Part shown: one piece after another, positions 15,641 through 25,204 of the stretch
Layout of the letters: the number at the start of each line of letters is the position of its first letter
Position numbering within the stretch: the first letter of the stretch is position 1
From: an uncultured Cohaesibacter sp.
GTDB taxonomy: Bacteria; Pseudomonadota; Alphaproteobacteria; Rhizobiales; Cohaesibacteraceae
DNA: 64,000 nt
Direction of reading: 5' to 3'
Assembly: GCF_963678225.1 (NCBI RefSeq)
Contig: NZ_OY782763.1
Coordinates: 1,240,001 to 1,304,000, forward strand
The notes under the pieces: generated by a model
Databases searched by the model: none
Told to the model about the DNA's origin: nothing
The model's input: the letters and a program-made list of their open reading frames with translations, nothing else
Program-made: the position numbers and the translations under genes

Positions 15641-16462
15641 CTATTTCGACAGCTCGATGGAGCGATCTCTGGCAGCAACGGTAGCCTTGGCCAGCAATTC
15701 GCCAAGCCCGCCCTCTTCTGCCATCAGAACGGCAAGCGCTGCTGCAGTCGTCCCGCCCGGAGAAGTCACATTCTCGCGCAGGGTAGAAGCGCTGAGCGGC
15801 GACTGGTTGAGCAATTCACCTGCCCCGACAATGGTCTGCCGCGCCATCAGGTTGGCAGCATCCGGTTCCAGTCCAAGCGCTTCGCCAGCCTTGGCCAAAG
15901 CCTCAACCATATAAAAGACATAGGCTGGTCCGGAGCCGGAAACAGCCGTTACGGCATCAATCAGAGCCTCTTCGCCAACCCAGGTGAATTTACCGGTAGA
16001 GGATAGCAATTCAGCAATCGCCTCGCACATCTCCGCAGACACCCCGTCAGAGGCAAAGGCTGCAAACATGCCGCGCCCGACCTGAGCTGGCGTGTTCGGC
16101 ATGACACGAGCGACACCCGTATCTGCGCCAAAATAGGACTGGAAGGTCGCAATCGGCGTGCCAGCGGCGACAGAAGCAACAACCGTTTTTGGTCCAACCA
16201 GACCAGTGAGGCCCGGCAGCACCTTGGCCATCATCTGCGGTTTGACAGCAATGACGAGAATATCCGGCTGCGCAACAGCTTCAGGTGAGGAGACAAGGGA
16301 AAAGCCGCGTTTTTCAGCGAGCGCTTTCATATCTTCCGGCTGTCCGGGATCAATCACCGTAACATTGCTGGCTTTCAGATCCATCTCCAGCCAGCCCGTA
16401 AGCATGGCTCCGCCCATCTTGCCAGCACCAACCAAAACCAGCGACAACTCATTCATTTTCAT
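15641..16462 (-). CDS. proC: pyrroline-5-carboxylate reductase
   Basis: ProC catalyses the last step of proline synthesis, NAD(P)H-dependent reduction of 1-pyrroline-5-carboxylate. The 273-residue product has the N-terminal Rossmann motif (LVGAGKMGGAMLTGW), the middle block AVKPQMMAKVLPG, and the C-terminal family signature AVSGSGPAYVFYMVEAL with TVVGAGELL-type helices and TSPGGTTAAALAVL. Length and motifs are normal. An in-frame ATG six bases downstream is an equally possible start. It lies downstream of ubiK on the same strand, separated by a terminator, so it probably has its own promoter. Confidence 0.96.
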   Translation of the reverse strand: MKMNELSLVLVGAGKMGGAMLTGWLEMDLKASNVTVIDPGQPEDMKALAEKRGFSLVSSPEAVAQPDILVIAVKPQMMAKVLPGLTGLVGPKTVVASVAAGTPIATFQSYFGADTGVARVMPNTPAQVGRGMFAAFASDGVSAEMCEAIAELLSSTGKFTWVGEEALIDAVTAVSGSGPAYVFYMVEALAKAGEALGLEPDAANLMARQTIVGAGELLNQSPLSASTLRENVTSPGGTTAAALAVLMAEEGGLGELLAKATVAARDRSIELSK

Positions 16463-21273: not shown

Positions 21274-21334
21274 CAATTTATTGTTCTTAAAGAAGAGTTA
21301 AAACAAATCCTGTTTGATAGGGTCACAACGCAAC

Positions 21335-21384
21335 AGGAACAGGGTCCGCTTGGCTCAAGTGAACCGACCCCGTTCCTTCTTTTT
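21335..21384 (+). terminator. intrinsic terminator after the M24 gene
   Basis: AGGAACAGGGTC pairs with GACCCCGTTCCT (one mismatch) around a loop of about 20 bases, followed by TCTTTTT. Confidence 0.75.
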
Positions 21385-21445
21385 GCCAATGAGGCCATTG
21401 GGCAAAAATGACATTGAGCGCACAGAAATGCGGAGTGATGATACC

Positions 21446-22099
21446 ATGCATAATCAACACCTGGGTTTACTGAGCAGAGTCTCAGCTTTGGTTTCTCTGG
21501 CCCTGCTCGTCACCGCCTGCGCCAGCGGTGGTGCCCCCACACCTCCCGGTGCAATTGGAGACACCCCTCCTTCCATTCTGGAAAGCCTGCCACCGGCAGA
21601 GGCTCCTGCTGATGAAACCGGTCAGGATGGCATGACCAATCTGGCCGATGCAGACACGGCAGGTCTTCCCCCGGCCACAAGCCTCCCCAACGCGACCAGC
21701 ACCAACCAGCCAGCCACGCAATATCAGGCTCCGGCTTCTCGTGCGGTCTTGACATTCGAGCCTATGGTTGGCGCCCCTAGCCGTGTTGCCCGCGAATTGG
21801 CAACAGCACTTGGCATGCGCGTGGCACAACAGTCTTTGCCTGTGGTCAAGCGCACCGACAGCAAGGTCACCCACCGGATCAAGGGATACTTTTCAGCCAG
21901 CAAATCCGGTTCTGAGTGCGTGGTCTCTTATGTCTGGGATATTTTCGACGCGAAGGGCAAACGCGTCAATCGCGTAACCGGAACGCAAAAGACCCAGATG
22001 GTCTCTTCCGATCCATGGGATAGCGTCACCGGCCCAGTTCTGGACAAGGTGGCAACGGATACAGCCGCCAAGCTCAAAACCTGGCACGCCAGCATCTAG
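21446..22099 (+). CDS. putative lipoprotein with low-complexity linker
   Basis: The ATG at 21446 has GGAGTGAT upstream; an ATG at 21428 is also possible. A signal peptide with lipobox LLVTACAS predicts attachment by Lgt (encoded 4 kb upstream) and an outer- or inner-membrane lipoprotein of about 217 residues. After Cys comes a stretch of about 80 residues rich in Pro, Ala, Thr and Asp (disordered linker), then a compact domain (FEPMVGAPSRVARELATALG to DTAAKLKTWHASI). I do not recognise the domain. A strong terminator follows directly, so the gene is monocistronic. Confidence 0.8.
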   Translation: MHNQHLGLLSRVSALVSLALLVTACASGGAPTPPGAIGDTPPSILESLPPAEAPADETGQDGMTNLADADTAGLPPATSLPNATSTNQPATQYQAPASRAVLTFEPMVGAPSRVARELATALGMRVAQQSLPVVKRTDSKVTHRIKGYFSASKSGSECVVSYVWDIFDAKGKRVNRVTGTQKTQMVSSDPWDSVTGPVLDKVATDTAAKLKTWHASI

Positions 22100-22388: not shown

Positions 22389-24872
22389 ATGCAATACTTC
22401 TCTTCAATAAAGAGACGCAAGTCGCGCTTTATTCATATCAGTAGTATTACAATATCTCTTGTTACTTTTCTATTCGGATCTGCAAGTGCTATGGCCACAC
22501 CGGCACTTGAGGCACGCATTACCGAGCTTGAAAACCAGATTGCGCAGGGCATACAGGCCCAGCAGGTCAACTCGGATCACATCTGGACCATGACAGCCGC
22601 CGCACTGGTGTTGCTCATGCAGGTCGGCTTCCTATTGCTCGAAGGCGGCATGGTACGCTCGAAAAACTCCATCAACGTCGCCCAGAAGAATATTCTCGAC
22701 CTTTTGGTTTCCATTTCCCTTTTCTACCTGCTTGGCTTTGGCCTCATGTTTGGCACGAGCCTTGGCGGTTGGATCGGCTGGCAAACCAATCTCTTCGCTT
22801 GGGATTCCTTTCCCGACTGGAACTATACCTTTTTTGTCTTTCAGGCTGTATTCGTAGGCACCGCCGCCACCATTGTCTCCGGTGCGGTGGCCGAACGCAT
22901 GACCTTTACCGGTTATCTCGCCAGCTCGGTTCTCATTTCCATGATCATCTATCCGGTCTTTGGCCATTGGGCATGGGGCAATCTTTTAAGCGGAGACAAC
23001 ACCGCCTGGCTCGCGGACAAAGGCTTCATCGACTTTGCGGGCTCCTCGGTCGTCCATTCGGTCGGAGCCTGGGTGGCTCTGGCTGGCATCATCATCATCG
23101 GCCCCCGCATCGGTCGCTTCAATAAAGACGGCACACCCAACAAGATTCAGGGCTATTCCATCGTTCTTGCCTCTGCCGGAGCCATCATTCTACTGTTTGG
23201 CTGGATCGGCTTTAATGGTGGCTCCACAACGGCAGGAACGCCGGACTTTGCCCGCATCATTGCCAACACATTGCTATCTGCGGTCTTCGGCGGAACGGCA
23301 GGCTTTCTGCTTGGCTGGGTCAAGGATGACGTGTTCGAGCCCAGCCGCTCCATCAACGGCATGCTTGGGGCGCTGGTTGCCATCACCGCAGGCTGTGATG
23401 CCGTCAATCCGCACGGCGCAGTTATGATAGGCATCATCGCAGGCCTAGCCGTATGCCTTGCCGAAGACTTCATCGCCGGCGTATTGAAGCTGGATGATGT
23501 GGTCGGCGCCGTCTCGGTTCATGGCGTGGGGGGCGCTTTGGGCACCCTGCTCGTTGCTCCCTTTGCCATCGATGCCAAACTGGCCGCGGGCTCCCGTCTT
23601 GACCAGTTTTTGGTTCAGGGACAGGGCGTACTGCTCTGCTTTGTCTGGGCCTTCTCCGCTGCCATCGTCATGTTCAAACTGATCGATGTGACCGTCGGCC
23701 TGCGTGTCGACGCTGAAGACGAATTGCGCGGCCTCAACATTTCCGAACATGGCGCAACGCTCGGCACCGGCGAGTTGCAGCGCAAGCTGATGGAAATGAC
23801 CGAAGGCACCTGCGATTTGACCAGCCGCTTTGACGAAAGCTCCGGGGATGAAATGGGCGAGCTTGCCCAGGTGATCAACCCTTTTGTCGACAAGGTCCAT
23901 CACCTCGTCTCGGAAATATCCAGACAGGCGGTGGCCGTGGACGAAACCTCGCAAAATCTGGTTGAGATTTCGCAGGAATTCACAGACAACTCCCAAATGC
24001 TGGCCAGTCATTCTTCAAGCATGCATGAAGTGGTCTCCGGCGTTGAAAGCCGCATCGGTTCGGCCCAGAGCACCTCTTCGCAAATGGCCAAATATGGAGA
24101 GGAAATCGTCTCCTCGGCCCGCAGCATGTCAAATGAAATCCGCGAAGTGTCCGATACGGTGGGCCATCTCGCCCAGTCGGTAGAGGAGATCGCCTCCAGC
24201 GCGGACAATGCCTCGGAAATCTCGCTCAAGGCAGCCAATCTGTCATCCAACGCCAATGCCACTATGGAGGCACTGGTGGCTGCATCCAAAGAAATTGACG
24301 TGGTCGTACAGTTCATCATGAATATGGCAAACCAGACCAACCTGCTGGCCCTCAATGCCACAATCGAAGCCTCCCGCGCTGGCGAAGCCGGTAAGGGCTT
24401 TGCCGTGGTCGCCGACGAGGTCAAACAGCTGGCGGTTCAGACCTCCAAGGCAGTGGAAGAAATCAAGGAGAAAGTGGACCGCATTCAAAGTGGATCCAAC
24501 AGTGCCCAGACAGGTATCGACGAGGTTTCCAAAATCATCCTGGCCATTCGCGAAGGTGTAGAAACGATCCGCGAGACGACTCATCAGCAAAGCCAGTCGA
24601 CCTCGAATATTGCGCAAAGCACATCTCAAATCAGCTCCATGGCAGAGGACATGACCAACAGAATCACCGGGCTGTCCTCCGGTATCGGAGAAATCTCTAT
24701 GGCAGCCAACGATATGTCTGCCGCCTCCAAAGGCCTGTCTGAAACCAGCGGCATTCTCAGCGGTCGAGCCAAGAGCGGAGAAAGCAACGCCAGCCAGACG
24801 AGAGACCGTGCGCAATCGCTCAAAAAGGTATCCCGAAGCCTTGTCCAGTCCGTCGCCGAATTCAAGGTCTGA
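22389..24872 (+). CDS. ammonium transporter-methyl-accepting chemotaxis protein fusion (Amt-MCP)
   Basis: One 827-residue protein in three parts. Residues about 1-36 form a signal peptide. Residues about 60-450 form an Amt/Rh channel with eleven helices. The pore features are kept: an Asp in [12 protein letters not shown], the first pore His in the same block, the second in [12 protein letters not shown], and phenylalanine-gate blocks FFVFQAVF and [10 protein letters not shown]. The Amt tail ([12 protein letters not shown]) leads to a half-HAMP-like segment ([17 protein letters not shown]) and a chemoreceptor coiled coil with the hairpin tip [27 protein letters not shown] (about residues 645-670). 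It probably senses ammonium and signals through CheA/CheW. No CheR-binding pentapeptide is present at the C-terminus. It is monocistronic, with a terminator at 24909. Confidence 0.93.
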
Positions 24873-24908
24873 CGGCAATTCGGACAGAAAGGCGTAAGAC
24901 CTTCCGAT

Positions 24909-24946
24909 AGCCTTCGACCCGAAAGCGGGCCGGAGGCTCATTTTTT
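24909..24946 (+). terminator. intrinsic terminator of the Amt-MCP gene
   Basis: AGCCTTCGACCCG pairs with CGGGCCGGAGGCT (G-U pairs allowed) over an AAAG loop; TTTTTT begins two bases later. Confidence 0.85.
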
Positions 24947-25204
24947 AGCATTATTTTTAGAGAAAAAAGCGATTCACTGCGTCACATAAACTTTACAAGA
25001 CGGGGGTTCGTTGTTTACAAGGCCCCTACAATACAGCGCATCCTCCAGGAACGCGGCATCCACTCCAATAGTTTTCAGGCAATCAGTTTTTCAACTTTTG
25101 AAAGTCTCAATCGTTGAAAAGGGGATTGTTAATCAGGGGCCCATAGGAGCCATCCCCCGACCAACGGCTCCCCCAATCTTGCGAAGCGACAGGGCATAAG
25201 GTTC
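24947..25204. other. prs upstream region
   Basis: No gene seen. This is the promoter and leader region of prs. The first part is A+T-rich with possible -35 TTTACA-like words near 25010; no clean promoter pair can be assigned. Confidence 0.4.

Follow-up and report, generated by a model that had tools for sequence, protein, structure and literature searches.

The window, the stretch of 64,000 nucleotides that we analyzed from an uncultured Cohaesibacter sp. (contig NZ_OY782763.1), encodes a protein in which an ammonium transporter (Amt) module of the sensor type is followed in the same frame by a HAMP domain and the signaling tail of a chemoreceptor (MCP). Judging from sequence comparisons, we consider it likely, with a probability of roughly three in four, that this protein is an orphan chemoreceptor for external ammonium that feeds the shared CheA. 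The evidence comes from the domain architecture, the distribution and selection of the fusion, the residues of a putative ammonium site that distinguish fused from unfused Amts, and the chemotaxis genes found elsewhere in the genome.

A single open frame encodes an Amt module, a HAMP domain, and a chemoreceptor tail

In a Pfam scan, the window protein matched Ammonium_transp (PF00909; residues 66-457, 346.3 bits, E 2.6e-103), HAMP (PF00672; residues 462-502, 31.0 bits against a cut-off of 25), and MCPsignal (PF00015; residues 604-778, 120.2 bits, E 1.1e-34), all within an open frame of 827 codons (Table 1). The AlphaFold2 model had a mean pLDDT of 69.2 and a pTM of 0.52, and because of this mean pLDDT, it was used for helix order and fold only. 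Its helix list, as read by eye, contains a signal-type first helix and then eleven membrane helices; downstream of these are a helix at 442-453 in the Amt C-terminal region, HAMP helix 1 at 459-472, and HAMP helix 2, which starts at 488 and leads into a long helical hairpin. The protein has the characteristics of the Amt/Mep/Rh fold (PF00909 over the cut-off, 11 TM helices, twin His, Phe gate, and Asp), of a HAMP relay (PF00672 over the cut-off and two amphipathic helices with a connector), and of the MCP family (MCPsignal domain, conserved hairpin tip, and coiled-coil arms).

These data agree in most respects with the initial annotation, which was made from the sequence without database searches. 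That annotation had described an eleven-helix Amt and a chemoreceptor tail in one frame, and the open frame, the three Pfam matches, and the eleven modeled membrane helices support both points. The coiled coil with a conserved hairpin tip that it had reported is matched by PF00015 and the tip motif; by analogy, the tip would be the contact region for CheA and CheW. By contrast, the stretch that it had called half-HAMP-like is not a half domain, because the match passes the Pfam cut-off over profile positions 12-50 of 53. The protein ends in VAEFKV and lacks the CheR-binding C-terminal pentapeptide, as expected from the earlier remark that a methyltransferase tether is missing, and none of the 29 MCP frames of the genome that could be read (28 besides the window protein, with one additional MCP region yielding no frame) has a W..[FWY] end. 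A strict methylation pattern was not found in the window MCP, which has a 10-residue near-match at residues 595-604.

Table 1. Features of the Amt-HAMP-MCP gene and its surroundings (window coordinates)
Feature	Position	Strand	Basis or remark
Amt-HAMP-MCP gene	22389..24872	+	827 codons/aa; ATG at 22389, stop ends at 24872, no internal stop
N-terminal signal-type helix and short periplasmic helix, residues 1-63	22389..22577	+	AlphaFold2 helices 2-34 and 38-87; fast-evolving
Amt sensor module, residues 66-457, eleven TM helices	22584..23759	+	PF00909; Foldseek matches
Putative ammonium site, TM1 part: Q78 and E85 (Ks-Amt5 Q24, E31)	22620..22643	+	Alignment
Putative ammonium site, TM2 part: N101 and D104 (Ks-Amt5 N47, D50)	22689..22700	+	Alignment
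Putative ammonium site, third part: T161 and S164 (Ks-Amt5 T109, T112)	22869..22880	+	Alignment
Pore residues D215 and H223 (first twin His)	23031..23057	+	Alignment; second twin His, H378, at 23520-23522
Linker TM11-HAMP (Amt C-terminal region), 23 residues	23694..23762	+	GLN versus GLD of unfused Amts; helix 442-453
HAMP domain, AS1 ~459-472, AS2 from 488 and continuous with the coiled coil	23763..23918	+	Pfam, 31.0 bits; AlphaFold2
MCP N-terminal arm	23919..24314	+	Holds the near-match to a methylation site, 24171-24200
MCP hairpin tip	24315..24458	+	Pfam, tip motif; low omega
MCP C-terminal arm	24459..24869	+	Without CheR tether pentapeptide
Upstream neighbors			lgt, SAM-dependent methyltransferase, Cu-oxidase_4, M24 peptidase
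Downstream neighbors			prs, TPR-sulfotransferase, L25

The fusion recurs in other genomes and is under purifying selection

Using a probe of 132 residues across the Amt/HAMP boundary, we detected the fusion in 10 of the 41 genomes searched, i.e., in 8 of 18 Cohaesibacter genomes (own genome included) and in two other families of the order. The fusion frame is open in seven further Cohaesibacter genomes as well as in G026 and G040, and the junction is 99% and 86% identical to those of named Cohaesibacter relatives. With a junction profile, five matches were obtained among 385 genomes of the class; the five genomes, one of which is the genome studied here, all carry the MCP tip motif. With a broader profile, 40 of 397 genomes of the order were matched, and 14 of these have a frame of MCP length (eight Cohaesibacter and six others); the MCP was confirmed in all 14, ten by sequence and four (G496, G461, G516, and G545) by the tip motif, while most other matches lie in frames of ~1060-1240 aa, a cyclase-type length. 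A phylum-wide search with profile A4 matched 120 of 398 genomes, mostly through the HAMP only and starting at profile position 24-30, and because it was swamped by such matches, no count was drawn from it.

Named genome records contributed 30 loci, each with at least 222 residues beyond the Amt part. Among the 18 loci that were scanned with Pfam, MCPsignal was found in 11, two of which come from Spirochaetota MAGs, while four loci have GGDEF, two have HATPase_c, and one (L044) has PAS only; the remaining twelve were typed by motif only. The pairing of Amt with MCPsignal, which the initial annotation had proposed to search for in other genomes, is accordingly present in Cohaesibacter and in named records of Roseibium, Rhodobium, and Methylobacterium, among others. 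The HAMP domain is uneven across the eleven MCP-fused relatives scanned: it is over the cut-off only in L026 and below it in L029, L037, and L038, and seven relatives have no HAMP listed at E 0.001. We also observed an assembly (G164) with three Amt-HAMP fusions (L019, L023, and L024), two of them to MCP and one, cut by a contig end, with a histidine-kinase box recognized by eye.

Between Cohaesibacter orthologues (six pairs; dS saturated in some parts in two of them), omega was, where computable, 0.015-0.063 in the Amt part, 0-0.116 in the HAMP domain, and 0.017-0.036 in the tip, which had the lowest omega of the cytoplasmic part in four of the six pairs. Residues 1-60 had an omega of 0.19-0.45 versus 0.015-0.063 in the Amt part. 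The Amt-MCP gene evolves under purifying selection. As a separate observation, the HAMP part (window 23796-23940, codons 470-517) shows unusually strong conservation of synonymous codons, which reaches 0.81 in the best 40-codon stretch versus 0.53 on average (permutation p 0.003; comparison of the window gene with the four orthologues L012-L015).

The gene is apparently monocistronic and was probably lost in a close relative

Seven of the ten frames in the neighbor scan were assigned to a family, while those at 16462, 21314, and 26243 were not. No operon partner was seen around the Amt-MCP gene, which is apparently monocistronic. Promoter-like sites around the gene did not exceed expectation (2 versus 2.1 expected), terminator-like sites numbered 7 versus 3.9 expected (SD 1.9), and the repeats comprised two short direct and two imperfect inverted ones.

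In 10 of the 18 Cohaesibacter genomes, of which one has a completeness of just 64%, the gene was not found. In nine Cohaesibacter genomes and one genome from a sister genus, all ten without the fusion, frame 21314 and prs have homologues that are adjacent with no fusion match between them, the gap in the nine Cohaesibacter genomes being 209-594 bases. In the close relative G013, the gap (L190, which separates prs from the homologue of window 21314-22099) aligns to window 24837-25204 with 93% identity and includes the last 36 coding bases as well as a weak N-terminal piece (67%, E 4.6e-4), and this remnant suggests that G013 has most likely lost the gene. Because it is missing in 10 of 18 Cohaesibacter genomes and apparently lost in G013, the gene is dispensable.

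This patchy distribution and the remnant in G013 are what might be expected of two genes joined by a sequencing error, a concern raised at the outset, or of a decaying, non-functional fusion. Against this, the frame is open in eight Cohaesibacter genomes, in G026 and G040, and in independent named records, and the computable omega values of the Amt, HAMP, and tip parts range from 0 to 0.12. These findings rule out a join artefact, and we regard an erroneous or decaying fusion as hardly credible.

A five-residue ammonium-site signature separates fused from unfused Amts

For Ks-Amt5, passages of the published description report a two-ion ammonium site composed of Q24, E31, N47, D50, T51, T109, and T112, binding of NH4+ without efficient translocation, and, for methylammonium, Na+, and K+, traces at background level only (PMC5764959). 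To 125 Amt frames found, we added the window protein, Ks-Amt5, and Sd-Amt1 and removed three duplicates (L025, L059, and L130) and eight partial frames (L023, L024, L078, L099, and second frames in L066, L070, L072, and L080), giving an alignment of 117 Amt domains with 407 columns compared, in which 55 fused and 58 unfused rows were used for column ranking. The 59 unfused Amts are a selected subset of profile matches plus E. coli AmtB; one of the searches contributed 30 high-scoring loci, and its other loci were hand-picked. The labels MCP, GGDEF, and HK in the alignment are motif-based, and six rows labeled "other" that are MCP by Pfam were counted as MCP.

All five residues corresponding to Ks-Amt5 Q24, E31, N47, D50, and T109 are present in each of the 27 MCP-fused rows. 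These rows include the window protein and represent 25 distinct sequences; nine of the rows are from Cohaesibacter and, as near relatives, not independent. The full set is also present in 17 of 18 kinase-fused rows besides Ks-Amt5, the exception having S for T, in seven of eight cyclase-fused rows, the eighth being truncated at this site, and in Sd-Amt1 and one PAS-fused row. Among the 59 unfused Amts, a single one (L061) has the full set; 28 of the other 58 share two of the residues and 30 none. L061 (G090) is an unfused Amt of 433 aa that combines the full sensor-site signature with a transporter-type C-terminus (GLD, YPDF), and because it carries the full set, the five-residue site is not proof of a sensor.

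When the 407 columns were ranked by how well they separate fused from unfused rows, Q78 ranked 1, N450 ranked 2, T161 ranked 3, and D104 ranked 9, followed by N101 (30), E85 (61), S164 at the T112 position (90), and the T51 position (148). N101 and E85 rank lower because one unfused clade also has both, and since E and N occur together in this clade (AEN pattern), only the full set is telling. N450, part of a GLN motif in the Amt C-terminal region, is present in 55 of 55 fused and 0 of 58 unfused rows, and 57 of the 58 unfused rows have D at this position (GLD). Compared to Ks-Amt5, the window protein has five of seven site residues identical, one T-to-S replacement (S164), and L in place of T51, which nearly all fused Amts likewise lack.

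The pore set of the window protein comprises, by alignment, F155 and F275 (Phe gate), W196, S279, D215, H223, and H378, so the two pore histidines, the Asp, and the Phe gate that had been described initially are indeed in place. Pore residues are the same in the fused and unfused classes, except that S227 is T in 3 of 59 unfused Amts, and because they are common to both, they are not diagnostic; as evidence for transport, the pore set was rejected as a discriminator, being the same in fused Amts, unfused Amts, and Ks-Amt5. It is the putative intramembrane binding site, and not the pore, that separates fused from unfused Amts. The five-residue set is a family-wide marker that does not prove binding and to which shared descent contributes.

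Sensor-type Amts with different outputs group together

In a quick, unrooted tree of 93 Amt domains (24 rows omitted as near-copies or truncated), the fused Amts form one connected part that is flanked on both sides by a block of unfused Amts, and Ks-Amt5 branches next to one of the two blocks. A part of 24 rows (SH-aLRT 87) holds all 21 MCP rows plus three cyclase-fused rows, and two of these three are Cohaesibacter PAS-GGDEF-EAL paralogues. A topology test of a single origin of the MCP fusions gave a p-AU of 0.164, which neither demonstrates nor rejects such an origin. The simplest reading of these groupings would be output swapping on one sensor lineage.

The genome encodes one chemotaxis cluster and a separate glnK-amt pair

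The search for cheA, cheW, and glnK suggested by the initial annotation returned one che cluster and a glnK-amt pair. The genome (two contigs, 4.94 Mb) has 30 MCP matches and one frame each for CheW and CheA, and a single cluster of cheR, cheB, cheY, cheW, and cheA has a FliI-type ATPase and a response regulator as neighbors. Among the 28 other MCPs that were readable, 21 are collinear with that of the window protein, any gaps being confined to the vicinity of its C-terminal end, and seven are gapped elsewhere. PII genes are located at C1:386046 and C2:941032, the latter just upstream of an unfused amt at C2:941567. The window gene (C1:1262389) has neither a glnK neighbor, the PII genes being far off, nor a GLD-type C-terminus (GLN at 448-450).

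The genome holds two further Amt fusions. One, on contig C2 (L007:6606-8792), is a degenerate Amt that, like L129 (G016), has lost both pore His and the Phe gate; its 345-residue tail matched HATPase_c with 24.2 bits, just under the Pfam cut-off of 26.4. Degenerate Amt fusion frames are present in 17 of 18 Cohaesibacter genomes, and the two aligned rows lack site and pore; by its predicted residues, the L007 type is a conserved Amt fusion with a dead pore. The other, also on contig C2 (L005:5060-8317), is a sensor-type Amt-PAS-GGDEF-EAL protein of 1085 aa that adjoins what by eye resembles a two-component pair, and frames of its length are present in 14 of 18 Cohaesibacter genomes versus 8 of 18 for the Amt-MCP. 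In addition, a second unfused Amt (408-435 aa) is present in 7 of 18 Cohaesibacter genomes and in 0 of 8 Amt-MCP carriers, with three genomes having neither; these are raw counts across kin.

A model for ammonium chemoreception and its alternatives

In the model that we favor, NH4+ would enter the periplasmic filter and occupy the intramembrane site (Q78, E85, N101, D104, T161, and S164). Occupancy would shift the Amt C-terminal region, which in Ks-Amt5 overlies the neighboring monomer, and this shift would cause the HAMP domain to repack and the MCP tip to alter CheA activity. CheR and CheB would adapt the receptor without a tether, and the MCP tails would pair between or within Amt trimers, by analogy with Ks-Amt5 and Sd-Amt1. 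The Amt module probably transports little or nothing, with bulk uptake by the glnK-linked amt. The initial annotation had likewise proposed an ammonium chemotaxis receptor with a transporter-fold sensor; the identity of its modules is well supported (sensor-type Amt, HAMP, MCP hairpin, and che cluster), and the function assigned to them stays at the probability given above. Speaking against this orphan-receptor reading are the T51-to-L difference, the uneven HAMP in relatives, the lack of a strict methylation pattern, and the dispensability of the gene.

Alternatively, the protein could both transport ammonium and signal, in which case the receptor would report flux and not occupancy. The initial remark that the protein may also transport retains its basis in the complete pore set but is weakened, because Ks-Amt5 keeps the same pore and yet lacks efficient translocation (PMC5764959, in part). 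The bulky blockers Y30 and F34 of Ks-Amt5 correspond to L84 and M88 in the window protein, letters that are also common in unfused Amts, so transport could still occur here, and fungal Mep2 is termed a transceptor in passages of PMC4852598. The lack of a second unfused Amt in the eight carriers could mean that it was replaced by the Amt-MCP, but it could equally be a matter of mere descent, and the glnK-linked amt is available for uptake. On balance, we consider such a dual role unlikely.

That ammonium is not the main signal, and that a sensor-type Amt for another cation, pH, or membrane state drives the shared CheA, appears quite improbable to us. The ligand measurement is known for Ks-Amt5 and is transferred here by homology at 44% identity, and the T51 position of the site differs. 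However, the other site positions are identical except for the T-to-S replacement, the selectivity filter residues W196 and S279 are kept, and Ks-Amt5 itself responds with background traces only to the other cations cited above. In comparison with these alternatives, a chemoreceptor for external ammonium is the reading that we retain.

Symmetry of the receptor and implications

Amt modules are trimers, and the tails of MCPs form dimers, three of which pack into a trimer of dimers with six chains. We know of no chemoreceptor with a trimeric sensing half. Two Amt trimers supply six tails; therefore, pairing between trimers could feed one trimer of dimers from two or more Amt trimers. By analogy, we tentatively suggest, as a possibility that we do not favor, a receptor array built from Amt trimers in which tails are paired between neighboring Amt trimers. 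If this were true, ammonium sensing would be cooperative across trimers, and the receptor lattice would be cross-linked at the membrane. The protein would be a natural case of a threefold-symmetric membrane module driving a twofold-symmetric signaling tail, with CheA readouts at hand. For Ks-Amt5, passages of the published description report a trimer with the C-terminus over the neighboring monomer and hypothesize transient pairing of the kinase tails (PMC5764959).

Amt sensors with kinase and cyclase outputs are already known, and an MCP output would extend this kind of sensor to swimming behavior. In the parts of the open-licence literature covered, we found no paper on an Amt-MCP, which domain databases and other papers may list, and no report of an Amt sensor driving chemotaxis or of a dedicated bacterial ammonium chemoreceptor. 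Three Clostridium strains are described as showing taxis to ammonium salts, as is ACK-M1 through a citation, with no receptor named in the passages concerned (PMC9689628, PMC6520916). If our reading is correct, the gene encodes a receptor that lets marine alphaproteobacteria steer by ammonium, and a five-residue test would allow an Amt gene to be read as sensor or transporter.

Comparison with known Amt sensors and transporters

The best Foldseek matches of the Amt module were 6eu6, "Sensor Amt Protein" (TMt 0.91, 44% identity), followed by 8qj3 and 8qj4, "Receptor Sd-Amt1" in the OFF and ON forms, and the nearest solved structures of the module are, hence, those of two ammonium receptors. Ks-Amt5 of Kuenenia stuttgartiensis (6eu6) shares with the window protein the site residues Q, E, N, D, and T and all pore residues, with S for the second T here. 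It differs in having a kinase output instead of an MCP and, according to the passages of its description, in being without a HAMP domain (PMC5764959), while the window protein has one, as well as L for T51 and L and M for two of the three channel-blocking residues.

Sd-Amt1 of Shewanella denitrificans (8qj3, 8qj4, and 8qpf) is likewise an Amt receptor, with the site signature QEND-T-S and 41-43% identity, and its PDB titles read Receptor, OFF-state, and ON-state; unlike the window protein, it has a GGDEF output in the chain instead of an MCP. It was reportedly described by Pfluger et al. in 2024 as an Amt-HAMP-diguanylate cyclase with paired HAMPs. The L005 paralogue from the same genome resembles the window protein in its sensor-type Amt and GLN-EH linker and groups near the MCP-fused Amts but has a GGDEF-EAL output and no HAMP listed (Pfam, E 0.001). 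Finally, the unfused AmtB/GlnK transporters, exemplified by E. coli AmtB (L131) and the L006 protein of the same genome, have the fold and pore residues in common with the window protein, whereas at the positions of Q, E, N, and D they have T, Y, V, and T (AmtB) or A, E, N, and L (L006), and they are distinguished by GLD in place of GLN in the C-terminal region, a glnK neighbor, and the lack of a signaling tail.
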